A DNA stretch of 64,000 nucleotides, taken from contig VBWB01000001.1 of NCBI GenBank assembly GCA_006218045.1, positions 310,001-374,000 on the forward strand. Direction: 5' to 3'. Shown here piece by piece: positions 1-31,821 of this stretch (position 1 is the first letter of the stretch; the number at the start of each line of letters is the position of its first letter). Source of the DNA: Stygiobacter sp. (GTDB lineage: Bacteria > Pseudomonadota > Alphaproteobacteria > Rhodospirillales > Magnetospirillaceae). Both the position numbers and the translations under genes were made by a program. The notes under the pieces are model-generated. The model saw only the letters and a list, made by a program, of their open reading frames with translations. It searched no databases and had not been told where the DNA came from.

Positions 1-1577
1 CTATTGCCTTCTTGCACCGCCCGGATCAGGCTTTTGGTCGACATGGGGTTGGTGGGGTCGACGGGAAAGGCCTTGACCAGCCGCAGGAACGGCTTCACCC
101 ACCAGGCCCGCGCGGTGAAGGTGTTGACGGCGAAGATCGGCTTTTCCGGCATGAAGGCGGCCAGCAGCGCCGGGTCGAGGAAAGAGGTGTGGTTGACCAC
201 GATCACCGCTGGTTCGCCCGCCGCCGGCAGGTGTTCCAGGCCGCGCACCTCGACCCGGTAGAGACGGCGGAACAGCCAGGACAGCACGCCTTTCATGAAA
301 GTGTCGGGCAACAGGCCGCAGATGATCACCGCCACCACCAGATTGGCCAGACCCAGCACACCGAAGATGTCGGTGACGCTTAAGCCCATGGCCAGCAGGA
401 CAGCACTGGCCAGGGCGGCGGCGACCATGAAGCCAGCGTTGAACAGATTGTTGGCGGCGACCACGCGGGCGCGCACCGCCTCGTCGCTGCGTGCCTGCAA
501 GATGGCGTAAAGCGGCACGATATAGACGCCGCCGCAGATGGCGAACAGCAGCAGATCGGCCAGCAGCCGCCACGATTGCGGACGCGCCAGGAAGTGCGAC
601 AAGCTGGCCAAGGTGCCGTCGCCGTCGACGGGAGCGGCGGCGAACCACAGATCCACGGCGAACACGGTCATGGCCAGGGCGGCGAAGGGGACATGGCGGG
701 CCGAGACCTCGCCCTTGAGCAGGCGTCCGCACAGCACCGAGCCCAGACCGATGCCGACCGAGAACATGGTCAGCATCAGCGTCACCACGTGTTCGTCGGC
801 ATGGAGCACGTTCTTGGCGAAAGCGGGGAATTGCGACAGATAGGTCGCCCCCACCAGCCAGAACCAGGAAATGCCCAGCACCGACAGGTAAAGATCGCGC
901 TGGCGGCGCACCAGGGTGTAAAGCCCCATGGTTTCACCCGGCAGGTTGAAGCCGACCTTGACGCTGTCATTGCCGCCATGGGCGCGGGGCAGCGACAGGC
1001 TGGCGCCGAAGCCCAGCACCGCCAGCATGACCATGGACCAGGCGACCAGGGCCAAGCCACCCTCGACCAGCACCAAGGTGCCACCGGCGATGGTGCCGAT
1101 CAGGATGGCCAGGAAAGTGCCGCCCTCGATCAGGGCGTTGCCGCCCACCAATTCGCCATCGCGCAGATATTCGGGCAGGACGGCGTATTTGATCGGGCTG
1201 GTGAAGGTGGATTGCAGTCCCAGCAAAAACAGCGCACTCAGCATGCCGGGGATGTTCTGCGCCATCAAGGCCCAGGCCCCCAGGGCGGAAATGGCGATCT
1301 CGGCCCCTTTCCAGAACTTCATCAATCCGGATTTCTCGTAACGGTCGGCCATCTGGCCGGCGGTGGCGGAAAACAGGAAATACGGCAGGATGAACAGGCC
1401 GGCGGCGGTGGTCGCCAGCACCTGCGGGTCCATGCCGGCCTGGGCGCCAAGCTGGTAGACCACCAGGATGACCAGGGCGTTCTTGAAGAAATTGTCGTTG
1501 GCGGCGCCCAGGAACTGGCTGACGAACAGCGGCAGGAAACGGCGGCAGGCCAGCAGGTGAAAGGTTGCGTCAGCCAT
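1..1577 (-). CDS. MFS transporter fused to 1-acylglycerol-phosphate acyltransferase (LplT/Aas-like), 3' end outside window
   Basis: Manual reverse translation from ATG at 1577: MADATFHLLACRRFLPLFVSQFLGAANDNFFKNALVILVVY..., MFS helices, then acyltransferase motif VVNHTSFLDPALLAAFMPEKPIFAVNTF. Runs off the window edge, so not listed in the ORF track. Confidence 0.85.
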   Translation of the reverse strand, partial: MADATFHLLACRRFLPLFVSQFLGAANDNFFKNALVILVVYQLGAQAGMDPQVLATTAAGLFILPYFLFSATAGQMADRYEKSGLMKFWKGAEIAISALGAWALMAQNIPGMLSALFLLGLQSTFTSPIKYAVLPEYLRDGELVGGNALIEGGTFLAILIGTIAGGTLVLVEGGLALVAWSMVMLAVLGFGASLSLPRAHGGNDSVKVGFNLPGETMGLYTLVRRQRDLYLSVLGISWFWLVGATYLSQFPAFAKNVLHADEHVVTLMLTMFSVGIGLGSVLCGRLLKGEVSARHVPFAALAMTVFAVDLWFAAAPVDGDGTLASLSHFLARPQSWRLLADLLLFAICGGVYIVPLYAILQARSDEAVRARVVAANNLFNAGFMVAAALASAVLLAMGLSVTDIFGVLGLANLVVAVIICGLLPDTFMKGVLSWLFRRLYRVEVRGLEHLPAAGEPAVIVVNHTSFLDPALLAAFMPEKPIFAVNTFTARAWWVKPFLRLVKAFPVDPTNPMSTKSLIRAVQEGN

Positions 1578-2166
1578 GATGGACCTCGGTCGGTTGGCTG
1601 GTGGAAGCAAGTGCGCGCAGGCAGGCGGCATTGATCTGGTCGGTGAAGCGCGACAGCGGTGCTTGCAGGCGGCCATAGAGGATGGCGGTGGCCGGTTGCA
1701 GCATCAGCCCCAGGATCATGGCGGTGGCCAGGGCCGGATCACTGAGCCCGACTTCCCCGTCCCTGATGCCCTGTTCGACCAGATGATGAAGCACCGATAC
1801 CGGGTTGTCGGCGCCGTCGGCGATGCGCGGCAATCCCTGGTGCTGCACCAGCAGCAGAAAGCGGAACAGCGTCGGATCGTCGTCGTGGAAGCGGCAGACT
1901 TCACCGATGACCGCCGCTAGGCGGGGGCGAAAGGCCGTGTTCGGCGCCTGAAGTTCGGTCAGGCGATGGGCGAAGGCAGTGTAGTTGCGGGCGAACAGAT
2001 CGGCGACCAGATCATCCTTGGACGCGTAGTGCCGATACAAGGTGCCCTCGGCGATGCCGGCGGCCTGGGCCAGATCGCGGACGCTGGTTTCGGTCACCCC
2101 CTGTTGCACGAACAGCCGCAAGGCGGCTTCATGGATGCGCTGTCGGGTCGGTCGTCCGTCCTTCAT
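1570..2166 (-). CDS. TetR family transcriptional regulator
   Basis: TRQRIHEAALRLFVQQGVTETSVRDLAQAAGIAEGTLYRHYASKDDL HTH signature; ATG at 2166 preferred over the GTG at 2196 used in the track; overlaps the MFS start by 8 nt. Confidence 0.9.
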   Translation of the reverse strand: MKDGRPTRQRIHEAALRLFVQQGVTETSVRDLAQAAGIAEGTLYRHYASKDDLVADLFARNYTAFAHRLTELQAPNTAFRPRLAAVIGEVCRFHDDDPTLFRFLLLVQHQGLPRIADGADNPVSVLHHLVEQGIRDGEVGLSDPALATAMILGLMLQPATAILYGRLQAPLSRFTDQINAACLRALASTSQPTEVHHG

Positions 2167-2184
2167 GGTCAGGCGCCATTTAAT

Positions 2185-2196
2185 GTGAACGTTCAC
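2185..2196. promoter_or_regulatory. Candidate TetR operator GTGAACGTTCAC
   Basis: Perfect 12-bp palindrome about 20 bp upstream of the TetR ATG. Confidence 0.55.
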
Positions 2197-2275
2197 TCAC
2201 AATGAAGCAGACGAGTATGTTCGTCAAGGGGGGGATGTTGTAGGCTTGAGGAACGGAACGAAGCGGAGACCCGGC

Positions 2276-3463
2276 ATGTCCGAAAAAATCCTGCTCGTCG
2301 ATGACGAGCCCAAGGTGTTGTCGGCCCTGCGTCGCAGTTTGGGGCAGCGCTTCGCCCTGTCTTGCGCCAATGACGGGGCGGAGGCGCTGCGAATGCTGGA
2401 GTCCGAAGGCCCGTTCGCGGCGGTGGTCAGCGACATGCGCATGCCGGGCATGAACGGCGTCGAATTGTTGTGCGAGATCAAGCGCCGTGCCCCGGAAACC
2501 GTGCGCCTGATCCTGAGCGGTCAGTCGGATTTCAGCGACGCGGTCAAGGCCATCAACGAAGGGGCGATCTTCCGCTTTCACACCAAACCGGTCTCCACCG
2601 AGGCCTTGGTCGAATCCCTGGAAATCGCCTTGCTGCAACACCGCCACCAGAACCGTCACGGCGGCACGCCGGGGCTGGATCTGGCGCGCGAGACCGCGGC
2701 CTTGCGCAAGGCCTTGCGGGAGGACCAATTGCGCATCTTCGTCCAGCCGCAAGCCAGCCTGCTCGACGGCCACATCCATGGGGCCGAAGCGCTGGTGCGC
2801 TGGCAGCATCCCGAGCGCGGGCTGATCCTGCCCGGTCATTTCCTGCCCCTGGTCGATGCCGCCGGCATGAACGAGGACATCACCCGCTGGATGCTGGAAG
2901 CGGCCTGCCGCGAGTTGCACCGCTGGGATGAATTGGGGCTGTCGTCCCTGCGTCTGGCCGTCAATATGACCGTGTCCGACATCGCCGACAGCGGTTTTGT
3001 CCGGCGCGTCGCCGATTCCATGGCCCGTCACCGGGTCAAGCCGGGCAATCTGGAGCTGGAACTGACCGAAGGGGCGGCGGTGGAGGATATCAACCGCGCC
3101 CGTCTGGTGCTGCAAAGTCTGGCGGATTTGGGCGTGCAACTCAGTATCGACGATTTCGGCACCGGCTATTCGTCCTTGGGCTGGCTGCGCCGGCTGCCCA
3201 TCAACAAGCTGAAGATCGACCGCATGTTCATCGACGACATCGCCGACGATCCTGAATCCTATCGCTTCCTCGCCTCGGTGATGACCTTGGCGCGGGATCT
3301 GAACCTGACCACCCTGGCCGAGGGCATCGAAACCCTGGAACAGATGAAGCAGGTCAGCCGCACCGGCTGCGATCTGGTGCAGGGCTTTTTCCTGGCCCCG
3401 CCCATGCCGGCCGGGGATTTCCCCGCCTGGGCCATGGCCCGCGCCGCCACACCGGGACGATGA
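2276..3463 (+). CDS. Response regulator with EAL (c-di-GMP phosphodiesterase) output domain
   Basis: REC motif ILLVDDEPKVLSALRRSL...VVSDMRMPGMNG; EAL motifs EALVRW, ELTEGA, IDDFGTGYSSL, KLKIDRMF, EGIET, QGF retained. Confidence 0.93.
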   Translation: MSEKILLVDDEPKVLSALRRSLGQRFALSCANDGAEALRMLESEGPFAAVVSDMRMPGMNGVELLCEIKRRAPETVRLILSGQSDFSDAVKAINEGAIFRFHTKPVSTEALVESLEIALLQHRHQNRHGGTPGLDLARETAALRKALREDQLRIFVQPQASLLDGHIHGAEALVRWQHPERGLILPGHFLPLVDAAGMNEDITRWMLEAACRELHRWDELGLSSLRLAVNMTVSDIADSGFVRRVADSMARHRVKPGNLELELTEGAAVEDINRARLVLQSLADLGVQLSIDDFGTGYSSLGWLRRLPINKLKIDRMFIDDIADDPESYRFLASVMTLARDLNLTTLAEGIETLEQMKQVSRTGCDLVQGFFLAPPMPAGDFPAWAMARAATPGR

Positions 3464-3471
3464 GGCTGACC

Positions 3472-4182
3472 ATGGCCGAGATTTCCTACGTCTTCCATCT
3501 GCCCGACGGCCACAGCCAAACCATCACCCTGCGCTTCGCCGACGATACGTTCTTGCTGCAATTGGCCGAGGACGGGCAGCCGGAGGATTGGACCGCCCTG
3601 GCTTTCAAGCAATGCCCCCATTGCCCGCTAAGCCCGGACACGACGCCCCGTTGCCCGCTGGCCCGGGCGCTCAGCGGTTTCGTCCACGGCTTCGACGCGT
3701 TCTATTCCTATGAAGTGGCGATGGTCGAGGTGGTGACCGCCCAGCGCACCATGAGCACCAGCCATCCGTTGCAGGAAAGCATGGCGTCGATCCTGGGCCT
3801 GGTCGGTGCCGCTTCCGGTTGCCCGCACCTGGATTTCTTCCGCCCCATGGCCCGCTTTCATCTACCCTTCGCCACCGAGCAGGAAACCCTGCTGCGGGTG
3901 TTTTCCATCCATCTGCTGCGGGAATATCTGCGCTCGGGCGGGCAGGGCGACCAGAGGATCGGGCTGGGCGGCTTGCCGGCCCATTTCGACGCGGTGGCCA
4001 AGGTCAACCTGGCCATGGCCGAGCGTATCCGCGCCGCCTTCAAGAAGGATGTGGTGGTCAACGCCATCGTCATCCTCGACACTTTCGCCCAAGCGGTGCC
4101 GTGGGTGATTGAGGACGCGCTCAGCGAGTTGATGCCTTTGTTCGATCTGAGGGTCACTGACGGACCGGAACCGGCTCCTTGA
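3472..4182 (+). CDS. Conserved-looking hypothetical protein with CPHCPLSPDTTPRCPLA Cys motif
   Basis: Coupled to the RR-EAL gene (ATGA overlap if it starts at 3460); N-term YVFHLPDGHSQTITLRFADDTFLL followed by a Cys-rich motif. Confidence 0.75.
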   Translation: MAEISYVFHLPDGHSQTITLRFADDTFLLQLAEDGQPEDWTALAFKQCPHCPLSPDTTPRCPLARALSGFVHGFDAFYSYEVAMVEVVTAQRTMSTSHPLQESMASILGLVGAASGCPHLDFFRPMARFHLPFATEQETLLRVFSIHLLREYLRSGGQGDQRIGLGGLPAHFDAVAKVNLAMAERIRAAFKKDVVVNAIVILDTFAQAVPWVIEDALSELMPLFDLRVTDGPEPAP

Positions 4183-5308
4183 ACTGAAAGCTCTTGCGCA
4201 GGCTGCGCAGCCGTTCGATCTGGGGCGGCGATAATTGGGTGTTGGCGGCCAGGATCAGATGGCCGTTGGTCAGGCGCAGATCGGCCAACAGGGTATGACC
4301 GACCCGCAAGGCGGCCACCGGCACTTCCGTTTCCACCGATGGCGGCGCCTCGCCCCCCACCTCCAGGCAGGCGCGCACCTTGGCCAGCAAGCCCGGGTCG
4401 TATCGTTCCGACCGCAGATCCAGGCGGGCGAAGGCGGCGCGGGTCGGCGGTCCGCCGCCGGTGGCTTCGGCCAGATCCTTCAAGATCTTCAGCAGCCGGG
4501 CGTCGAAGGGGATGTCGTTGCCCTTGGGGCCGTCGGCGGGAAAGCCGCTGCCGTCGAAGCCGCGATCCTGCAACAGCACCACCTCCGCCACCTTGTTCAG
4601 GCGCGGGATATTGGCGATCAGGTTGCGCGCCGCCTCGGGGGCGCGCTCGAACACGGATTTCTCCGCCTCGGTCAGGCTCTGGCCGGCCTTGTGGCGGGCC
4701 AGCAGTTCCGGCGGGATGGCCACCTGGCCGATGGGGATCAGCATGGCCGCCACGTTCAATTGCCAGCGTTGCGGCAGCTTGAATTCCACCGTCAGCAGCC
4801 GCACCCATTCGCGCAGGCGGCTGGCCATGGCATAGGCGACGGGGTCGTTCATGGACACCACGTCGACCAGCACCTTGATGCTGCCCGACAGGGTCTTTTC
4901 CAGCAATTCCCGTTCCGCCGTGACCAGGCGGTATTGGGTCAGGGCGGCGTTGAGGCCGTCGGTCAGCCGCTCCACCGGGCACGGCTTGGTGAAAAAGCGG
5001 AAGATGGCGCCCTGGTTGATGGCATCCATGGCGGTCTGCTGGTCGGCATTGCCGGTCAGCATGATGCGCACGGTGTCGGGCGAGGCCTCCTTGACCTGTT
5101 TCAAGGTCTCGATGCCGTCCATTTCCGGCATGCGCATGTCGCAGACGGCGACGGCGAAAGGCTGTTGCGCCGTTTCCGCCTGACGGATGGCGGCCAGCGC
5201 CTCGCGCCCGCCCTGGGCGGTGGTGATGTCGAAACCGTCACTGAGCTGGCGGCGCAATGCCGCCAACAAATGATGATCGTCGTCGATGATCAGGATGCGT
5301 TCAGCCAT
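4154..5308 (-). CDS. Response regulator with degenerate HD-GYP-like output domain
   Basis: REC (ILIIDDDHHLLAALRRQL...VCDMRMPEMDG) plus HD-GYP-like region with AAMLIPIGQVAIP in place of HD..GK and DGSGFP in place of GYP. Confidence 0.85.
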   Translation of the reverse strand: MAERILIIDDDHHLLAALRRQLSDGFDITTAQGGREALAAIRQAETAQQPFAVAVCDMRMPEMDGIETLKQVKEASPDTVRIMLTGNADQQTAMDAINQGAIFRFFTKPCPVERLTDGLNAALTQYRLVTAERELLEKTLSGSIKVLVDVVSMNDPVAYAMASRLREWVRLLTVEFKLPQRWQLNVAAMLIPIGQVAIPPELLARHKAGQSLTEAEKSVFERAPEAARNLIANIPRLNKVAEVVLLQDRGFDGSGFPADGPKGNDIPFDARLLKILKDLAEATGGGPPTRAAFARLDLRSERYDPGLLAKVRACLEVGGEAPPSVETEVPVAALRVGHTLLADLRLTNGHLILAANTQLSPPQIERLRSLRKSFQFKEPVPVRQ

Positions 5309-6522
5309 CAGCCCAGCCTTTCCCGCCTTTCTGCCGCCAATTGCCGCCAGTGGCGGACCCGCCCATCCTTACGGATATCTATCAAATAGGCCATATCCAA
5401 CCTGTCGGGGCCAGGGGTTTGTGCCGGCAGCAGCGGGAAGGGCGGTCCCAGCGCCTGGGCCACATGGGCGGCCAGCAACACCGGGCTGGTGGCGGTGGGG
5501 GCGGCAGCGGGGGCGGCGGCGAAGGCCACCGCCTCGACGATGGAATCGGCAAAGCCCCAAAGCCCCAGCAGATAGGCGCCGATGATCGGGTGCGAGGTGC
5601 CGAAGACCTTTTGTTCCGCCTGGGCGTGGCTGAAGTGCGGGCCGACCAGGGCCATGGCCTCGGCATAGCGGTCGGGGGCGTGGTCCAGCAGCACCAGCGA
5701 GCCGATGGGCGACAGCATGGCGGCGCAATAAGCCGCCTTGCCCACCGCGTCGGCGGCGCCGTCGGCCAAAGCGACGGCTTCGGCCAGGGCGGCCATTTCC
5801 AGGCTGTAGCGGGTCAGATCGTCCAGCGCTGTCGGCGATACGCGGTCGATGTCCAATTGCCGGAACAGCCCCACATGCAAGGCCAGGGACTGCACGGTCT
5901 CCATCCCCAGGGTCTTGACCGCCTGCAACGCCGAGGTGACCTGGGCGGGGAGGGCGAAGAAGGCCGAATTGGTCAGCTTCAGGATCTCGGCGGTCATGGC
6001 CATGTCGCGGCCCAGAATGGCCGCCACCGAGGTGGCCGAGGCATCGGGCCGGGCCAGTTCCGCCATCAACTGCGTGATCACGCCGGGCAGGCTGGGCAGG
6101 TTGGACAGGCCGCCGATCACCGACAACAGCGCTGGGTCGGACAGGAAACGGCGCAGGGCCAGCGGGCGGGTGATGGCCGCTTTCAGGCTTTGCGGGTCGC
6201 AGGGCTTGGCCAGATAGATATGGGCCTGTTCCACCGTTTTCAGCACGCTGGCGGTTTCGGCATAGCCCGACAGGATGACGCGGATGGCCTGGGGATGGTG
6301 TTTGCGCACGCTCGCCAGCACCTGGGCGCCGTCCATGCCCGGCATGCGCATGTCGGTGACCACCACATCCACTTCGTTGCGTTGCAGCCAGTCCAGGGCG
6401 GCGCTGCCGGACTCAAAGAATTCCATCCGCCACTGATCGTCCATTTCGTGCATGGATCGGCGCAAACCCCGCAAAACATGCGGCTCGTCGTCGATGAACA
6501 CGATGCGCAATCTGTCGGTCAT
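5308..6522 (-). CDS. Response regulator with HDOD output domain
   Basis: REC (IVFIDDEPHVLRGLRRSM...VTDMRMPGMDG) plus HDOD-like LPSLPGVITQLMAELARPDASATSVAAILGRDMAMTAEILKLTNSAFF; ATG at 6522. Confidence 0.88.
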   Translation of the reverse strand: MTDRLRIVFIDDEPHVLRGLRRSMHEMDDQWRMEFFESGSAALDWLQRNEVDVVVTDMRMPGMDGAQVLASVRKHHPQAIRVILSGYAETASVLKTVEQAHIYLAKPCDPQSLKAAITRPLALRRFLSDPALLSVIGGLSNLPSLPGVITQLMAELARPDASATSVAAILGRDMAMTAEILKLTNSAFFALPAQVTSALQAVKTLGMETVQSLALHVGLFRQLDIDRVSPTALDDLTRYSLEMAALAEAVALADGAADAVGKAAYCAAMLSPIGSLVLLDHAPDRYAEAMALVGPHFSHAQAEQKVFGTSHPIIGAYLLGLWGFADSIVEAVAFAAAPAAAPTATSPVLLAAHVAQALGPPFPLLPAQTPGPDRLDMAYLIDIRKDGRVRHWRQLAAERRERLG

Positions 6523-9500
6523 GGTCCCGGTGCCGTGTCCTTGCTGTTCAGGCCATCCACGGGGAGGCGGATGGTGAAGGTCGCCCCGTCGCCGTCGACG
6601 CTGTCCAACGCGATCTGACCACCATGCTTGACCGTGACCACGTCGCGGCAGATGGCCAGACCCTGGCCGGTTCCCTTGCCCACCGCCTTGGTGGTGAAGA
6701 AGGGATCGAAAATCTTCTCGGCGATGCCGTCCGGCACGCCGTTGCCGCTGTCGGCGATGCTGATTTCCACCCAATCATCCCGCTGGCGGGTGGCGATGCG
6801 GATGGTCCCCGGCAAAGGTTTGCCGGATTCCTCGATGGCGTGGGCGGCATTGACGATCAGATTGAGGAAGACTTGATTCATCTCGCCAGCATAGCACACC
6901 ACCAAAGGTAAGTTATCATCCAGTTGGCGTACAACTTCCGCCACGTGCTTCCAGGTATTGCGGCAGACGGTCAGGGTGCTTTCGATGGCGCGGTTGAGAT
7001 CGGTGGCGCTTTGCGCCGTGGTGCCGGGGTGGGAAAACTCCTTCATGGACAGGACGATGCGGGCGATCTGGGCGACGCCGTCTTGCGATTCCTCGACGGC
7101 GATGGGCAGTTCTTCCAGCAGATAGGGCAATTTGGCGGCGGCGGCGGCCTGCTGGAAGGCGTCCGACTGGCGGGCGGCGTCGAGGATCGGCGGCAGCTTG
7201 GCTAGCGCGGTGGCGATGAAGCGCAGATTGTCGCCGATATACTGGACCGGGGTGTTGATTTCGTGGGCGATGCCGGCGGCCAACTGACCGACACTGGCCA
7301 GCCGTGATGCCTGCAACGCCTCGCGTTGGGCCTGCTTCAGGTTCTCGATGTCGCGGAACGAGATGATGGCGGCGCGCAACACCCCGTCTTCGCGGATGGG
7401 CGAACAGGCATAGGCCACCGCCAATTGGGTGCCGGTGGCGGTGATGAAGGCAGCGTCGTCGTCGCGCAGGGTGACGCCCTGATCGGTCACCTTTTGCCAG
7501 GGCGAGCCGTCGAACAGCACATCGCCGCCATCGCTGGCGCGCAGACGCATCAGTCCGTCGAGCATGTGCCCTTCCAGGTCACCTTGCACGGTGTCGCATT
7601 GCAACAGCCGCCGGGCCGAGGCATTGGCGAAAACCAGTTGGCCCAGGCGGTTGATGACCAACACACCTTCAAACAGGCTGTCGGCGATGCCTTTCAGGCG
7701 CTCGCGCGAGGCGCGCAGGGCCACCTCGGTGCGGTTGCGGATTTCCACCTCGCGTTGCAGCTCGCCGGTGCGTTCCGACACCAGCCGTTCCAACTGGCGC
7801 TGCTGGTCGGCCAAGCCTTCTTCGTAACGCAGGCGCAAGGTGGCATCGCGGAAGATCAGCACCGCGCCGGCCAGTTGGTCGTTCTCGCGCATGGGGGTGA
7901 CCTGATATTCCACATGAAAGAACGAACCGTCGAAGCGCCAGAACACGTCGTCATTGACCTGGATGGCGGCGCCGTGCAGATAGGCTTGGCGCACGGCGGA
8001 GGAATCGTAGGGATAGGGCTCGCCCTCGAAATCGTACAATTGGATCAGGGCATGGAAGCAGTTGCCGATCATTTCGTCCGGCGCATAACCCAAGATGGTG
8101 CCGGCGGTCTGGTTGGCGAAGGTGATGCGGCCCTTTTGGTTGAGGCCGATGATGCCTTCCCCCGCCGCCCCCAGGATCAGTTCATAGCGGTGGCGCAACG
8201 CCTCAAGCTCGGCTTCGCGCTGCTTCATCTCGGTGATGTCGGTGCGCACGCCGACGATGCCGCCGTCGTGGGTGCGGAATTCGCGGCTTAAGAAACAGCG
8301 GCCATCTTGCATGCGCACCAGGAACGGCTCGCCCGAGGCTTCCTGGTATTTTTGCATCCGCCAGTCCAGCCACTCGGTCAAAGACAATCCCTCCAGATGG
8401 AAGATGCCGGCGGCCAGACCGGCGTGGACGATGTCCTCGAAATGGGCGCCGGCGAACACCTGATCGGCGGCGGTACCGAAGGTCTTGCGGTACTGGCTGT
8501 TGAAAATGACCAGCCGGTCGTCGCTGTCGAACACGCCGATGGCATCGACCAGACTTTCGATGGCGTCGGCCAGATATTGCTGGGCCAGCTTGGCCCGGCT
8601 TTCCGCCGCCGCCTCGCGGGTGATGTCGGCGCCGACGCCGCGATAGCCGCTGAAGCAACCATCGGTGCCGAACATGGGTATGCCGCTGATGCGGATGGTC
8701 TTGGCATCCTTGCCGTCTTGCGGCCCCACATGGAAGACCACGTCACGAAACGGGCGTTGCGCCTTGATGTCGGCGGTATGGCTGGCGGCCAGCCGGTCGT
8801 TGTCGTCGCCCAGGCCGATATCGAAGAAGGAATGGCCCAGGATCGCCGCCGGTTTGACGCCCAGCACGCTGGCGATGCGTTCGGAAACGAAGGTCAGGCG
8901 GTAATCGGTATCGGTTTCCCAAAACCAGTCCGACGCCGATCCGGCCAGATCGCGGAAGCGGCTTTCGCTTTCGCGCAGGTCGTATTCCATCTGCTTGCGG
9001 GCGGTGATGTCGCGGATGATGCCGATGAACGAGCGGCGACCGGCGCTTTGCACCTCGCCGATGGCCAGTTCGGCGGGAAAGTCCTCGCCATTTTGGCGCC
9101 GGGCGACGATCTCGCGGCCGATGCCGATGATGCCGGCCTGACCGGTGCGCAGGTATTGGGAAATGACCTGCTGATGGCCGGAATGGGCTTGGCCGCCCAT
9201 CAGCAGGTCGATGGATACACCAAGCAGGTTTTGGGTGCTGTAGCCGAAAATACGTTCGGCGGCTTTGTTGAAGCTCTCGATCTGCCCCAATTCGTCGATG
9301 ACGATGACCGCTTCGCCCACATTGTCCATGGCGACGTTGAAGCGGGCCTCGGCGTCCTGGCGCACCCGCCGCGCCGCCGCCTCCAGGTCGGCTTGCAGGG
9401 CCTCCAAGGCGTTGGCGTTGAGCGCGCGTTCGGCGTCCGCCTCGTCATAAGCGGCGCTGACCATCCGGCACAGCAATCCCACGTCGACCGCGCCGTTATG

Positions 9501-9539
9501 GGTGGCCTTCTGCAATTGCCGCTCGATCAGCTTATGCAT
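6519..9539 (-). CDS. Multi-PAS/PAC sensor histidine kinase (apparently soluble)
   Basis: Several PAS/PAC segments (e.g. [22 protein letters not shown]-type), H-box [23 protein letters not shown] boxes [47 protein letters not shown]; no obvious TM segment. Confidence 0.93.
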
Positions 9540-10667
9540 TCAATCCTCGCCGATGACGGTGATGGTCATGGTCTGGTTATGCAATTCGCACGAGCCGGTG
9601 AATTGGTGCGGGCTGATCTCGCCATAGGAATAAAAACCGATGGTCTGGCACTTCGGCCCCAGCACCGCGGCCACCGAATCGACCTCTTCCGCCACCCGCT
9701 GGCCCAACAGCAGCTTGCGACCGATGCAGCTGATCAGGATGGCCAGGCTGCCCGAGCCGTCGCCCATGGCCTGGCGCGCCGCTTCACCCGCCGCGTCGAT
9801 CAGGTGGGTGAAGACGCCGCGCATCATCTGTGCCGGCGCCCCGGTGGGGATGTCGCCGGCGAAGATCATCGCCTTGTTGGCTTCGTCGATACCGACCACC
9901 GTGCGCACCAGATCGGTGCGGCTGTCGTCCAGGCTGCGGATTTTCAGCGGAAACAGCAAGGCGGCGCCGGGCAGATTGCGGGCCTGGTCGCCCAGATAGC
10001 GTTTGTACAGGTCGAGCGCCGGCTCGCCGTCCAGTTCGTACAGGATGTTGTGATCCGAGCGGGTGACCATGCGTTCCGGCCCGAACGGATCCCAGCCGCT
10101 GAAGCTGCCGTGGCGCAGGCTCAGGCTGTCGCCGTAAAGGCCCAGGGCGACGATGTTGCCTTCCTTCGGCTGGGGGCCGATACCCACCCGGGTGGCCTTG
10201 AAATCGGCACGGTCGCCGGCCAGCCCGCCGGTCAGCATGGTGTCGGCGGGCAAGGCCTGCTTGAGGGCGCGCACCAAGTCACTGCCGTTGACGTGGGTGC
10301 CGTCGGAAAGGACGAACACGGCACGCAGGCCGGCTTTCGGCAAACCGTCGGCCAGTCGCAGGCCGGCATCGTGGGACGAGGCGCACTCGGCCATATTGAC
10401 CGTGGCATGGGCGAAGCTGGCGCGGTCGAAGCTGATGGCGGCGGCGCTGATGCCGTTGTCGACCACCTCGCCGGCATGGATTTCCCCCCCGGTCGAACAT
10501 CCCACCAGCACGGCGGCTGGATAGCGGCTTTGCAGCTCATCCAGGCCGCCCTGGTCCAGGGCGCCGGGATCGGAGAAATAAAGAACCAGCTGCGGCGGCG
10601 GGGCGGCGGTATGGGGGGCGAAGCGCCAGCCGGTTTCCCGGAGCCAAAGGCTTAAGTCAACATGCAT
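9540..10667 (-). CDS. FIST N/C domain sensory protein
   Basis: VLVGCSTGGEIHAGEVVDNGISAAAISFD ... GCELHNQTMTITV-type FIST_C end (GFYSYGEISPHQFTGSCELHNQTMTITVIGED). Confidence 0.9.
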   Translation of the reverse strand: MHVDLSLWLRETGWRFAPHTAAPPPQLVLYFSDPGALDQGGLDELQSRYPAAVLVGCSTGGEIHAGEVVDNGISAAAISFDRASFAHATVNMAECASSHDAGLRLADGLPKAGLRAVFVLSDGTHVNGSDLVRALKQALPADTMLTGGLAGDRADFKATRVGIGPQPKEGNIVALGLYGDSLSLRHGSFSGWDPFGPERMVTRSDHNILYELDGEPALDLYKRYLGDQARNLPGAALLFPLKIRSLDDSRTDLVRTVVGIDEANKAMIFAGDIPTGAPAQMMRGVFTHLIDAAGEAARQAMGDGSGSLAILISCIGRKLLLGQRVAEEVDSVAAVLGPKCQTIGFYSYGEISPHQFTGSCELHNQTMTITVIGED

Positions 10668-26865: not shown

Positions 26866-27094
26866 TCATTTGATCGGGGAAAAGTCCCTCAGCTTCGCCT
26901 CGGTGTACTTTTCCCCGGTTTCTGCGATGAAAACCCGTGCTCAAGCAAGCTTTCCGCGCGGGTTTCGGTCTTTCTCCCGCCTTCGCCCCGCAAAGGCGGT
27001 AAAACGTAAAGGCGAAAAATAGGCGCAGGGCCGCCCCAAGCCTATTTTTCTCAATTTAAATCAACGGGGAAAAAGCGAGGGACTTTTCCCCGGG
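26866..27094. repeat. Nested inverted-repeat block between convergent genes
   Basis: Outer 15-bp IR GGGGAAAAGTCCCTC (26876-26890) / GAGGGACTTTTCCCC (27077-27091); inner GGGGAAAAGT/ACTTTTCCCC, AAACCCG/CGGGTTT, CCGCCTT/AAGGCGG, AAAAATAGGC/GCCTATTTTT. Confidence 0.85.
27015..27049. terminator. Bidirectional terminator-like hairpin AAAAATAGGC/GCCTATTTTT
   Basis: 10-bp perfect stem, 15-nt loop, A tract on one side and T tract on the other. Confidence 0.65.
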
Positions 27095-28270
27095 CTACGC
27101 CTTCGCCCCCAGCATGGTCTTGAGGCGGGCGATCTCGCCGGATTGATAGCGGATGCGCGCCGCCATCACTTCCAGCAGCTTGACGGCGATGATGTCGCTT
27201 TTTTCCAGCCGGGCCAGGAATTCCGCCCCCTTGATCACCACCACTTCCGACGGCTCCAGGATCTGGGCCGAGGCCATGCGCGGGCGGTCGTCCAGCACTG
27301 CCATCTCGCCGATGATGTCGCCGGGCTTGGACAGGTCCAGATACAGCTCGCGCCCGTCCGGGGTGGTCTTGGATATCTGCACCAGCCCGTCATCCAGCAC
27401 ATAGCATTCGCCGTTGCAGGCATCGCCTTGGTGGAACAGGTATTCCCCCGGTCGCAACGTGCGGCGATTGTGGGTGGCCGGACCGGCGGTGGTGATCTGC
27501 GGCTTGCCGGTGATCGCCGCCTGGACGGCGCGCATCTGTTCCACCGCGTCGGCGATGGCGTTGCCCATGCTCGAGGTATTGCGCAAATTGCCGGCGATGC
27601 GCAGCGCCATGGGGCGCAGGGATTCGTCGGCGGGCAGTTCGGCCAGGGTCTCGATCATCACCGCCGCCCGTTCGGCGTCGTCGGCGCGGCACAAGGCCGG
27701 TTCGCGGAAGGCGCCGAACGAGCCCAGCAATTTGCCGGCGCCGTTGCTGGACTGGATCGACCGGGCCACGTGCAGCAGGCGGGCGGTGGCGAAGTTCTCG
27801 ACCTTGAGGACGCCCTTGGGCGACAGATAGGCTTCCGACGGCGACAGACACAGGCCGGTCTGGCCGATGCGCTGACTGAGCTCGAACAACGACAACAGCC
27901 GCACCATGGCCGAGACGGCAAAGGCCGAGCTGATGTTCTCCACCCGCTTGGGCAGGCGGCTCAAGGGCAGGCCGTCGGGCGGTTCCGACACCACGTAGAG
28001 GCGGTGGTCGTCGTGCAACAGATCTTCCGCCTGCAAGACGCTGGGATGGGTGGTGGTGCGGGCCTGATCGACATCCGCCTTCAGCAGGTCGGGGCCATAG
28101 CCGGTGCCGGGATGGCTGAGCAGATCCTTGGGGATGCCGTAGATCACCACCTGCCGGTCCGACTTGGAGTCCTGGCAGTGGGCGTGGATGATGCCGCAAT
28201 CGACCTCGCTGGATTGCACCCGATAGCGGTCGAACAAGGTACCCGGCAGCATGACGCTGGTTTCGCTCAT
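27095..28270 (-). CDS. Kinase-like (probable pseudokinase) N-terminal domain fused to C-terminal cyclic-nucleotide-binding domain
   Basis: C-term CNB: GEYLFHQGDACNGECYVLDDGLVQISKTTPDGRELYLDLSKPGDIIGEMAVLDDRPRMASAQ. N-term order of segments resembles a Ser/Thr kinase: FDRYRVQ..., YVVSEPPDGLPLSRLP, LCLSPSEAYLSPKGVLKVENFATARLL. Confidence 0.8.
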   Translation of the reverse strand: MSETSVMLPGTLFDRYRVQSSEVDCGIIHAHCQDSKSDRQVVIYGIPKDLLSHPGTGYGPDLLKADVDQARTTTHPSVLQAEDLLHDDHRLYVVSEPPDGLPLSRLPKRVENISSAFAVSAMVRLLSLFELSQRIGQTGLCLSPSEAYLSPKGVLKVENFATARLLHVARSIQSSNGAGKLLGSFGAFREPALCRADDAERAAVMIETLAELPADESLRPMALRIAGNLRNTSSMGNAIADAVEQMRAVQAAITGKPQITTAGPATHNRRTLRPGEYLFHQGDACNGECYVLDDGLVQISKTTPDGRELYLDLSKPGDIIGEMAVLDDRPRMASAQILEPSEVVVIKGAEFLARLEKSDIIAVKLLEVMAARIRYQSGEIARLKTMLGAKA

Positions 28271-28358
28271 GGATCGTTCCCCAGATTGAGCCGCCCATGA
28301 TACTGTCGATGTCCAATGATGGCGAGGCGGTTTGAATCAACCGGAAAGGAATAGGCGC

Positions 28359-28793
28359 ATGGTTTGGCGAATGGGATGCGCGGTCGCCGCGCTGATGCTG
28401 GCGGCTCCGGCCTGGGCCGGCTCGGTCGGGACCATCAAGACGGTGACGGGCGAGGCCCATGTAGAGCGCGGCGGCCAAAGCGTCACGGCGGCGCCGGGGC
28501 TGGCGTTGGAACAAAGCGATGCCATCGTTACCGGCAATGACGGCAGCGTCGGCCTGACGCTCCGCGACAACACCACGCTGTCGGTGGGGCCGCGCACCAG
28601 CATGGGTCTGGACGAATTCGACTTCGAGCCGGCGGCGGGCAGCATGAAGCTGGTCACCTCGGTGGCGCGGGGCACCATGATGATGACGTCGGGAACCATC
28701 GCCAAGCTGGCGCCCGAGAAAGTATCGGTGGTGACCAAGTCGGGCACCATCGGCGTGCGCGGCACCCGTTTCGTGGTCAGTGTGGAAGAATGA
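28359..28793 (+). CDS. FecR domain protein (secreted)
   Basis: Signal peptide MVWRMGCAVAALMLAAPAWA; FecR-like GTIKTVTGEAHVERGG...SVVTKSGTIGVRGTRFVVSV. Confidence 0.85.
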   Translation: MVWRMGCAVAALMLAAPAWAGSVGTIKTVTGEAHVERGGQSVTAAPGLALEQSDAIVTGNDGSVGLTLRDNTTLSVGPRTSMGLDEFDFEPAAGSMKLVTSVARGTMMMTSGTIAKLAPEKVSVVTKSGTIGVRGTRFVVSVEE

Positions 28794-29395
28794 CGAACAT
28801 GCCCCGTATCCTTGCCGCCCTGGCCGTGGTCACCCTGTTGGCCGGTTGCGCCCGCCCGGCGGCTTATGTGGTGCTGCTGGACCAGCCCGATCATCCCGGC
28901 AGCGCCGTCACCTGGACCAACCAGGCCGGCACCCAGGTGGTGGCCACCCCCGGCAGCGGCACCGGCGCCGACCGCGCCGATGCCAAGCCGGCGGACGTGT
29001 TCGCCCTTTCGGAAAAGGACATTCAGGATCGCTTCGGTCAGGCCATCAAGGCGCAGCCGCGCACGCCCAAATCCTTTTTGCTTTATTTCCAGTTCCAGTC
29101 CACCGACCTGACGCCGGAATCGAAGGCGTTGCTGCCGTCGGTGCTGGACGAGGTCAAGGCGCGTCCGGCCCCCGATCTGTCGATCATCGGCCATACCGAT
29201 GGGGTGGGCGACGCCAAGTACAATTATGAACTGGGGCTGCGCCGGGCCAAGGAAGTGCAATCCATGGTCACCGCTTTGGGTATCGAACCGAGGATGATCG
29301 AGGTGACCAGCCACGGCCAAAGCAACCTGCTGGTGCCGGAAGCCAAGGGCAAGGGCGAGGCCAAGAACCGCCGGGTGGAAGTGACGGTACGGTAG
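28790..29395 (+). CDS. OmpA family lipoprotein
   Basis: Lipobox LLAGC; LYFQFQSTDLTPESKALLPSVLDEVK...SIIGHTDGVGDAKYNYELGLRRAKEV; ATGA overlap with fecR-like gene. Confidence 0.9.
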   Translation: MTNMPRILAALAVVTLLAGCARPAAYVVLLDQPDHPGSAVTWTNQAGTQVVATPGSGTGADRADAKPADVFALSEKDIQDRFGQAIKAQPRTPKSFLLYFQFQSTDLTPESKALLPSVLDEVKARPAPDLSIIGHTDGVGDAKYNYELGLRRAKEVQSMVTALGIEPRMIEVTSHGQSNLLVPEAKGKGEAKNRRVEVTVR

Positions 29396-29420
29396 GTCTC
29401 CCCGTGGCGTTGTCGTGAGT

Positions 29421-29653
29421 GGAAAGAACCAGCCGCAACACGGATGAACGCGGATGCCCGCGCCAGAGCGTGTGAGTTTATCCGCTCCCTTCTGCCGTCA
29501 CTCCCGCGAAAGCGGGAGTCCAGAGTGTGCACCACAACCTTTTTCGCGACTCCTGGATACCCGCCTGCGCGGGTATGACGGGGTGACAAGGTGGAGACGT
29601 CAATAAATTCACAGGCTCGCCAGCGTCCATCCGTGTTGCTGCTGGTTTTTCCC
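29421..29653. repeat. Composite MITE/REPIN-like intergenic element
   Basis: Imperfect ~31-bp terminal inverted repeats (29421-29451, 29623-29653) around a head-to-head pair CGTCACTCCCGCGAAAGCGGGAGTCCAG (29496-29523) / CTGGATACCCGCCTGCGCGGGTATGACG (29553-29580). Confidence 0.75.
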
Positions 29654-29676
29654 GCCTGTACTGACGGCTGCCGGGT

Positions 29677-31821
29677 CTATTTCTCCGCCAATACCACCCG
29701 CACACCACTTTCCCCCGCGTGCAACCGCTTCAGATGAAACGCCGCCAGTGGGTCGCCGTCGGCCAAGGGGGCGAAAGCGAGCAATGCCGCCGCCGTGTCG
29801 CCCGCCGCCATCAGCGCATAGGCGGCCAGATAGGCTTGGGCATCGCTGCCGGCGGGCAGCGGCTCGAAGGCCAAGGTGGCTTCGCTTTTGCCTTTCAGCA
29901 CCAGTTCGCCCACCGGACGGCCATGGAAATCCGGGCATAGTTCCGCCGTACTGCCAGCGACGCAGATATGGGTGCCCAGGTGGCGGTTGACGGTTTCCAG
30001 CCGGGCCGCCGCGTTGACCGCGTCGCCCAGGGCGCGGTAATCGGAAATGCTGCCGCCGCCCACATTGCCGATGGTGACCATGCCGGTATTGACGCCGATG
30101 CGGGTTAGCCCCAAGGCATGGCCCTGTTCCCGCATGCGAATGACATAGGCGCGGCTGAAGGAATCCATTTCCAGGGCGCAGGCCACGGCGCGGGCGGCGT
30201 GGTCGGGTTGCATCACCGGGGCCGAGAACATCACCGCTACCGCGTCGCCGACGATGCGGTCCAGCGTGCCCTGATGAGTGAAGGCGATCCTGACCATGCC
30301 GTCGATATAACCGTTCAGCACGTGCAGCAAGGTGGCCGGGTCGGATTTTTCCACCAAGGTGGTGAAGCCGGCCAGGTCGGTCATGACGAAGGAACATTCG
30401 CGGCGTTCGCCGCCCACCGCCAGCGATTGCGGGTTGTCCAGCAGATGGCGCACCAGATTGGGCGAGATATAGCGGGCGAAGGCGCCGCGGATGAAGGCGC
30501 GTTCCGCCTGATCCTGGCGATGGCGGACCAGGGCGGTGATGCCATGGGCAAGGATGGCGGCGGCCAGGGCCGGCAGCGGGTCGGCCAACAGCCGCATGTC
30601 CAGGAACAATAGGGCGGTCAGGCCCAGCGACAGCAGGGCGACGGCCAGGGTGGTCAGGGCCCCGGCCAGGGGCGCCATCCAGGCGGCGGCGGCGATCAGG
30701 ATCAGGCCGGTGATCACCGCCAGCAGGGTTTCCGCCCCTTCCATCCAATCGGGCCGCTGGGGCAGGGCGCCCAGTTGTGCCGCTTCCGCCACCTCGGCAT
30801 GCATGAGCACACCAGGGACGATGTCGCCATGCGGGGTCAGGCGCAAATCCAGCAAGCCCTTGGCCGAGGCGCCGACGAAGACCACGTGGCCGTCAAGGGC
30901 GCGGGTATCGGCGCTGCCGTCCAACACCTTCCAGGCGGGGACGAAGCGATCGGCTTGCGGTCTGGTGTAGTGCAGATGCACCGATCCCTGCGCATCCACC
31001 GGGATTTGCAAGGGGCCCAGGGCCAATTGGGTCAGTGCCCCGGTTTCCTCCGCCGACTTGACCAGGATGTTGCGCTTGCCGGTGGCGACGCGCAGGGCTT
31101 CCAGGGCCAGGGACGGGTGCAATTGCTCGCCCAGGCGGACGATCAGCGGCACCCGGCGGATGATGCCGTCGCCATCGGCGGTGAAGGCGACGGCGCCGGT
31201 GCCGGCGGCGGCCTGTTCCAAGGCGGGCAACGAGCGTACGCCCTGGCCCAGATCAGGCAGGGCGGCCAGCGGATCGGGGCCGGAAAAGATGAAGCGGGCC
31301 TTGGCCGGGCTTTGCTCCCCCGCCGGCTGATGGCCGCCGGCGAAGCCGGTAACCACGCTGCTGGCGGCGAAGCCGGTGACAACACTGCCGCCGGCGATTG
31401 CCGCAGCCAGTACCGCATCGGGGTCGGGCAGGGTCTGGATGGTCTGACGCATGGCCGGCGACAGCGGCCAATCGGCCGAGACACGGGTGGGCGCGGTGCG
31501 GTCGGGCTCGGCCAGGATGATATCGAGGGCGATGGCAGCGGCTCCGGCGGCGCGCAAATTTTCCACCAAAGCCGCCAGAGAGTGGCGCGGCCACGGCCAT
31601 TGCCCCAGCCGGGCCAGGGAATCCTCGTCGATATCGACGATGCGGACCGGCACCGGCACATAGGGGCGCGGCCACAGGTTTTGCAGGGTGTCGAAAGCCA
31701 GATGGTCCAGCCGGGTCCGCGCCTGCGGCACCAGCAGCAGGGCAAGGATGGCCAGCACCAGGGCGACAGCGCCGATGGCGGCCGCCCGCATCTTGGCCCT
31801 TGCCTTGCCGGTCATGGCCAT
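29677..31821 (-). CDS. CHASE2 sensor domain adenylate/guanylate cyclase
   Basis: CHASE2 VRIVDIDEDSLARLGQWPWPRHSLAALVENL..AIALDIILAEPD; C-terminal TM helices; cyclase ECSFVMTDLAGFTTLVEK...GTLDRIVGDAVAVMFSAP...IGVNTGMVTIGNVGG...DYRALGDAVNAAARLE. Confidence 0.94.
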   Translation of the reverse strand: MAMTGKARAKMRAAAIGAVALVLAILALLLVPQARTRLDHLAFDTLQNLWPRPYVPVPVRIVDIDEDSLARLGQWPWPRHSLAALVENLRAAGAAAIALDIILAEPDRTAPTRVSADWPLSPAMRQTIQTLPDPDAVLAAAIAGGSVVTGFAASSVVTGFAGGHQPAGEQSPAKARFIFSGPDPLAALPDLGQGVRSLPALEQAAAGTGAVAFTADGDGIIRRVPLIVRLGEQLHPSLALEALRVATGKRNILVKSAEETGALTQLALGPLQIPVDAQGSVHLHYTRPQADRFVPAWKVLDGSADTRALDGHVVFVGASAKGLLDLRLTPHGDIVPGVLMHAEVAEAAQLGALPQRPDWMEGAETLLAVITGLILIAAAAWMAPLAGALTTLAVALLSLGLTALLFLDMRLLADPLPALAAAILAHGITALVRHRQDQAERAFIRGAFARYISPNLVRHLLDNPQSLAVGGERRECSFVMTDLAGFTTLVEKSDPATLLHVLNGYIDGMVRIAFTHQGTLDRIVGDAVAVMFSAPVMQPDHAARAVACALEMDSFSRAYVIRMREQGHALGLTRIGVNTGMVTIGNVGGGSISDYRALGDAVNAAARLETVNRHLGTHICVAGSTAELCPDFHGRPVGELVLKGKSEATLAFEPLPAGSDAQAYLAAYALMAAGDTAAALLAFAPLADGDPLAAFHLKRLHAGESGVRVVLAEK

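Follow-up and report, generated by a model that had tools for sequence, protein, structure and literature searches.

Linked pairs of nucleotide cyclases and cyclic-nucleotide-binding (CNB) proteins are established elsewhere (PMC3770947, PMC11224242), and FecR proteins have been described beside CHASE2 sensors whose output is a cyclase or a histidine kinase (PMC9239204, PMC5192318). We have analysed a stretch of 64,000 nucleotides from Stygiobacter sp. (Magnetospirillaceae; contig VBWB01000001.1, positions 310,001 to 374,000), hereafter the window, in which a block of four genes encodes a CNB protein with a degenerate kinase domain (CNB-pseudokinase), a FecR protein, an OmpA-domain lipoprotein and a CHASE2-class III cyclase. 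From gene content, conservation and domain phylogeny we consider it rather likely that FecR, the lipoprotein and CHASE2 form an envelope sensor which drives the cyclase, and that the CNB-pseudokinase reads the predicted product.

Several described systems share parts of this arrangement. The Burkholderia BiofilmReg operon (LysM-FecR protein, CHASE2 histidine kinase and response regulator; PMC5192318) also places FecR and a peptidoglycan-binding domain beside CHASE2, but its output is two-component and FecR and LysM are fused in one protein. The CHASE2-adenylate cyclase cluster of Campylobacterota (cyclase, phosphodiesterase, FecR protein and TPR protein; PMC9239204) has the FecR partner and linked signalling genes, whereas it includes a phosphodiesterase and neither an OmpA lipoprotein nor a CNB-pseudokinase is described there. 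In Sinorhizobium meliloti, the NsrA-CyaD1/CyaD2/CyaK-Clr pathway (PMC13001267, PMC5498481) connects an outer-membrane protein with a CNB receiver by way of CHASE2 cyclases; there, however, the outer-membrane part is a beta-barrel and the receiver is a Crp-type transcription factor. Xanthomonas XC_0250/XC_0249 (PMC3770947) couples a class III cyclase producing cyclic GMP (cGMP) with a linked CNB-GGDEF receptor, but the cyclase carries TPRs instead of CHASE2 and the effector makes cyclic di-GMP (c-di-GMP) and is no pseudokinase. In Pycsar (PMC11224242) the PycC cyclase and the CNB-TIR receptor are likewise co-encoded; the window cyclase, in contrast, is a membrane sensory cyclase with envelope partners, and a TIR or transmembrane (TM) effector domain is absent. 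A Pycsar-type defence function was rejected on this absence and on matches to PycC and PycTIR profiles that are partial and to generic domains.

The mtxA operon (PMC4439547, PDB 4z29), which similarly combines a secreted protein with a CHASE2 cyclase, is the second CHASE2-cyclase operon of the same genome (locus L083; G000:C16:12000-30000, genes 665-10500). It encodes an MtxA orthologue (at G000:C16, and absent from the window block), a cyclase with a Lys/Thr pocket, a CHAT-TPR protein and, downstream, a protein combining a metallo-beta-lactamase fold with CNB, possibly a phosphodiesterase/receptor. It differs from the window block in its canonical Lys/Thr cyclase, in the clades to which its CHASE2 and cyclase domains belong and in lacking both the FecR-OmpA pair and the CNB-pseudokinase. 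MtxA was not detected by our FecR model and is therefore not called a FecR protein. Deletion of mtxA in Magnetospirillum gave no visible phenotype (PMC4439547).

The preliminary description of this DNA, made from the sequence alone, rightly regarded FecR/CHASE2-cyclase neighbourhoods as known, while ranking the block as the top candidate for an undescribed system. The latter term is too broad, given the published FecR/CHASE2 systems and the mtxA operon, but the CNB-pseudokinase receiver looks new, as do its link to cyclases with non-canonical base pockets and its combination with FecR-OmpA. Searches of the open-access literature yielded no description of a CNB-pseudokinase receiver, nor anything pertinent to bacterial CNB pseudokinases or to CHASE2 combined with cyclic-nucleotide binding.

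Results

Distribution and co-inheritance of the block

The family sample comprised 55 genomes, 13 of them in the genus Magnetospirillum. Outside the window, genes were called with a simple open reading frame (ORF) picker, neighbourhoods were labelled with profiles built for this work, and functional links are inferred from sequence and context. The complete block is present in six of the 13 genus genomes, always all four genes or none, and its conservation at 72-97% identity in these genomes indicates that the arrangement is not due to chance. Bearers related to the source strain include Magnetospirillum sulfuroxidans J10, Magnetospirillum sp. 64-120, sp. W65 and Rhodospirillaceae bacterium UBA6219. 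Another bearer, G021, very probably belongs to M. gryphiswaldense, since its MtxA differs from the crystallised protein of that species only at a single internal residue and at the tag junction.

The block is flanked by pepF and pntAA. These genes lie on one contig in five block-less genomes, separated by a 359-bp gap in one and by unrelated genes in the other four (on inspection, an ABC1-type kinase plus a secreted protein or histidine kinase), and tblastn of this interval detected no block fragment in any of the five. Two further genomes, in which the flanks are on separate contigs, lack block orthologues, and in G027, the sixth bearer, the interval is interrupted by contig ends. All four genes are under purifying selection, with dN/dS of 0.07-0.30 (start codons being approximate in some orthologues). 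Thus, the co-conservation beyond the source strain that the preliminary description called for is observed in six species-level genomes. Its proposal of a cyclase/receiver unit is supported by this co-inheritance and by the recurrence of CNB-pseudokinases beside CHASE2 cyclases, but the complete four-gene set was not found outside the genus in the family, order or class samples.

The CNB-pseudokinase and its association with cyclases

A Pfam search did not detect the kinase-like N-terminus of the window CNB protein, which gave a weak match to StkP (E 2e-4); two full-length relatives exceed the curated Pkinase cut-off. In Foldseek comparison of the AlphaFold model (pLDDT 83, pTM 0.79) with the PDB, the N-terminal part matches PknA and Stk1 and the CNB part matches GlxR, CRP and Bd1971. 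None of the 13 aligned family members has an HRD or DFG motif, nor is the beta-3 Lys conserved; the pseudokinase label given initially is therefore correct, and an active PKG-like CNB-kinase is rejected since no family member has the catalytic motifs. The CNB-pseudokinase is a narrow family without kinase catalytic motifs. The phosphate-binding-cassette residues of the CNB domain are kept, and ligand choice is not settled by its base-recognition residues, inspected in the Gln377-Ser378 region of the last helix. In a class-wide search (395 genomes) the full-length protein was found nowhere outside the source genome, and in the order sample (300 genomes) it occurs in the same family and in one genome of another family. 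Near the L086 cyclase lies a kinase gene that seemed to be an exception, but it encodes an ordinary active kinase without a CNB domain.

Full-length CNB-pseudokinase genes were found at 14 loci, of which the genus accounts for six, other genera of the family for seven (L038-L044) and another family for one (L191). A CHASE2 cyclase lies within 10 kb on the same contig at 12 of the 14, other genera included, compared with a chance proximity roughly estimated at 1-2% per locus for genomes holding about 2-4 CHASE2 cyclases. The clusters of other genera additionally contain CHAT-TPR proteins, secretion parts, more CNB proteins and CNB-PAS-GGDEF, and in related clusters different CNB effectors (CNB-GGDEF, CNB-EAL, Crp) adjoin the cyclase. 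In two cases (L038:6402-7160, L085:8669-9448) the CHASE2 cyclase is adjoined by an Apyc1-like (PF23023) metallo-beta-lactamase, a candidate cyclic nucleoside monophosphate (cNMP) phosphodiesterase of chromosomal signalling clusters.

Two side observations concern these neighbourhoods. In another family (L222:5633-6916, L237:5499-6863), CNB-EAL proteins separate FecR from a CHASE2 cyclase and likely link cNMP to c-di-GMP. At L181:3-8451 a very large ORF (2038 amino acids or more) has a FecR domain close to its start; this ORF is divergent from a CHASE2 cyclase and followed by genes resembling secretion transporters.

Catalytic residues and base pocket of the cyclase

Both metal-binding Asp residues and the transition-state Asn and Arg of the window cyclase are present and invariant in the alignment. 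Its base-specifying pair, Arg522/Arg596, does not correspond to the canonical adenylate cyclase pair (Lys with Thr, Ser or Asp), and is found in all six genus orthologues. In CNB-pseudokinase-linked cyclases of other genera the pair is Asp/Ser or Glu/Val. Lys, with Ser or Thr, occurs in 37/37 class-wide CHASE2 cyclases, and Lys is also kept in 21 of 24 unlinked family cyclases (L086 counted as unlinked). Counted by lineage, Lys is absent from six of six linked versus three of about 61 unlinked lineages (Fisher p near 1e-6, computed on slightly different totals), a test that overstates the case because lineages are not independent and the trees imply about two origins. The three unlinked cyclases without Lys are those of L180, with a CNB-pseudokinase on the same contig, L085, with one on another contig of the same genome, and L088, on a 2.7-kb contig. 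The base-pocket residues do not reveal which nucleotide is the product. We tentatively raise the possibility, which we regard as somewhat doubtful, that the linked cyclases make a nucleotide other than cyclic AMP (cAMP), either cGMP or a cyclic pyrimidine, which is read privately by the CNB-pseudokinase, the altered pockets having arisen about twice.

Apparent chimeric origin of the cyclase

The two halves of the window cyclase differ in phylogenetic position. The CHASE2-domain tree places it among class-wide cyclase-type sensors (22-row clade, 99/100) and away from the clade formed by the CHASE2 domains of CNB-pseudokinase-linked cyclases in other genera, whereas the catalytic-domain tree groups it with those linked cyclases (18-row clade, 100/100). 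Forcing the window catalytic domain among the class-wide cyclases was rejected (p-AU 5e-59). An exclusive clade of Magnetospirillum and family-cluster cyclases was also rejected, if marginally (p-AU 0.04), since the CNB-EAL-linked cyclase of L222 groups within it; the catalytic clade is therefore wider than the pseudokinase association. In one comparison the nearest catalytic domains were those of L084 and L086, which keep Lys/Thr and lack a CNB-pseudokinase. The cyclase thus looks chimeric, the conflicting domain trees suggesting that catalytic domain and CNB-pseudokinase stayed together while the sensor differs. The simplest reading would be that the sensor half was exchanged, the CNB partner being retained or reacquired by the catalytic half.

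FecR-OmpA pairs and CHASE2 sensors

Elsewhere in the family, at four loci (L079-L082), a FecR-OmpA lipoprotein pair adjoins a CHASE2 histidine kinase, which in turn neighbours a response-regulator-like gene (HisKA/HATPase assigned by Pfam in L079 and by BLAST in the others). Among 17 full-length OmpA-type lipoproteins of the class sample, in which certain contigs stop near the gene, FecR is adjacent or fused in 12 and CHASE2 is adjacent in seven, comprising four histidine kinases and three SpoIIE-type proteins. The latter, at L213:6898-10129, L247 and L252, are CHASE2-SpoIIE phosphatases (assigned by Pfam in L213 and by motif in L247 and L252) and represent a third output type of the sensor front end. 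As the pairs stand beside CHASE2 proteins of histidine kinase or SpoIIE output, FecR-OmpA-CHASE2 appears to be a reusable front end. Outside the genus the block is represented by two recurrent parts, cyclase with CNB-pseudokinase and FecR-OmpA with CHASE2. The FecR-CHASE2 link by itself is ordinary, since in about half of 37 CHASE2 loci drawn at random across the class a FecR gene lies a few genes away at most. The source genome also holds an orphan FecR-OmpA lipoprotein pair without a CHASE2 neighbour (G000:C2:101067-102087; L069:8065-9091).

Layout of the locus

ORFs and Pfam confirmed the gene positions, domains, ATGA coupling, 88-bp gap and convergence initially described (Table 1): a divergent CNB-pseudokinase gene, coupled fecR-ompA in which the ompA start overlaps the fecR end, and a convergent cyclase gene whose stop lies 281 bp from that of ompA. 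On inspection FecR has no TM segment beyond its signal peptide. In the lipoprotein, the lipobox Cys20 and the peptidoglycan-contact residues D137 and R152 are invariant in the alignment. By hydropathy, the CHASE2 domain is bounded by a TM-like segment at residues 13-31 and by TM-like segments within residues 365-407.

Table 1. Features of the four-gene locus, in window coordinates.
Feature	Position	Strand	Evidence
CNB-pseudokinase gene, 391 aa, likely cyclic-nucleotide receiver	27095-28270	-	Pfam, alignment, AlphaFold, Foldseek, motif table
Cyclic-nucleotide-binding domain, residues 270-357, phosphate-binding-cassette Glu322 and Arg331	27200-27463	-	PF00027 1e-22, alignments
Degenerate protein-kinase-fold domain, about residues 12-255, HRD/DFG absent	27506-28237	-	Pkinase in relatives, Foldseek, motif table
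Divergent intergenic region, 88 bp, common to CNB-pseudokinase gene and fecR	28271-28358		
fecR, FecR-domain protein, 144 aa, N-terminal signal peptide	28359-28793	+	Pfam FecR PF04773 4e-9
ompA, lipoprotein, 201 aa, OmpA/Pal peptidoglycan-binding domain	28790-29395	+	Pfam OmpA 6e-18
CHASE2-class III nucleotidyl cyclase gene, 714 aa	29677-31821	-	Pfam CHASE2 6e-55 and Guanylate_cyc 1e-16
Class III cyclase domain, residues 475-648	29878-30399	-	D482, D526, N603, R607 kept; R522/R596 at base-specifying positions
CHASE2 sensor domain, residues 23-373	30703-31755	-	PF05226 6e-55, hydropathy, domain tree

Two inverted repeats were observed at the edges of these genes. Between ompA and the cyclase gene, a 31-nt inverted repeat (87%) at 29421-29451 and 29623-29653 encloses 171 bp; the stretch looks like a small inserted element, because the two genes abut in G031. 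An imperfect 31-nt inverted repeat (77%) lies at 26875-26905 and 27062-27092, between pepF and the CNB-pseudokinase gene. A phage origin of the block is unsupported, as comparison with PHROG gave only matches of unknown function and none for the CNB-pseudokinase.

Discussion

Combined, these results are consistent with a relay from envelope to cytoplasm. FecR in the periplasm and the OmpA-domain lipoprotein, predicted to reside in the outer membrane bound to peptidoglycan, would constitute the envelope part and influence the CHASE2 domain on the periplasmic side. In the cytoplasm, the class III domain of the membrane cyclase would then produce a cyclic nucleotide, binding of which by the co-encoded CNB-pseudokinase may shift the state of the catalytically dead kinase domain, a putative scaffold or allosteric switch for a partner.

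Several observations weigh against this relay. The four genes sit in divergent and convergent units, which excludes a single operon, and their co-occurrence rests on few independent events. Outside the genus, neither the family loci nor the 17 class loci showed a FecR-OmpA pair adjoining a cyclase-type CHASE2. Two full-length CNB-pseudokinase genes lack a neighbouring cyclase, one across 18.5 kb (L191) and the other on a 7.3-kb contig (L040). Furthermore, the source genome has 14 places with CNB-domain similarity, and the receiver therefore need not be private to the window cyclase.

These CNB proteins also favour an alternative in which sensor and cyclase do work jointly but yield ordinary cAMP that enters a general Crp-like pool, with the CNB-pseudokinase a separately controlled neighbour, as in the NsrA-CyaD1/D2/K-Clr pathway, where CHASE2 cyclases signal to Clr (PMC13001267). 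CHASE2 cyclases of the class sample are, in addition, mostly without a CNB neighbour. However, the CNB-pseudokinase recurs near CHASE2 cyclases in other genera and the linked cyclases have the loss of the canonical Lys in common, and we judge a general cAMP pool unlikely. That the FecR-OmpA and cyclase/CNB-pseudokinase pairs are two independent, non-interacting loci lying side by side appears less probable again: FecR-OmpA pairs do stand alone elsewhere, including at L069 in the source genome, and outside the genus none adjoins a cyclase-type CHASE2, but the block occurs or is missing as a unit, the pair adjoins CHASE2 proteins of other output in several families, and FecR/CHASE2 operons are published (PMC5192318, PMC9239204). 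An inactive cyclase serving as a ligand-binding or dimerising module, as its two non-canonical base-specifying positions could suggest when set against the 37 class-wide relatives, is very improbable given the invariant catalytic residues, purifying selection and retention of Arg/Arg in all six orthologues.

In the relay that we favour, a full candidate chain of envelope sensor, cyclase and receiver is contained within 4.7 kb. The locus offers a candidate for a CNB-regulated pseudokinase in bacteria, together with signs that cyclase lineages have exchanged sensors. An orthologous block is present in the genome with an MtxA matching the crystal sequence of M. gryphiswaldense, a harmless and genetically tractable laboratory organism, and the lost base-specifying Lys is a sequence clue which makes product specificity directly testable. 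If the product is indeed a nucleotide other than cAMP with a private reader, the locus would represent a bacterial second-messenger pathway with a dead-kinase receiver.

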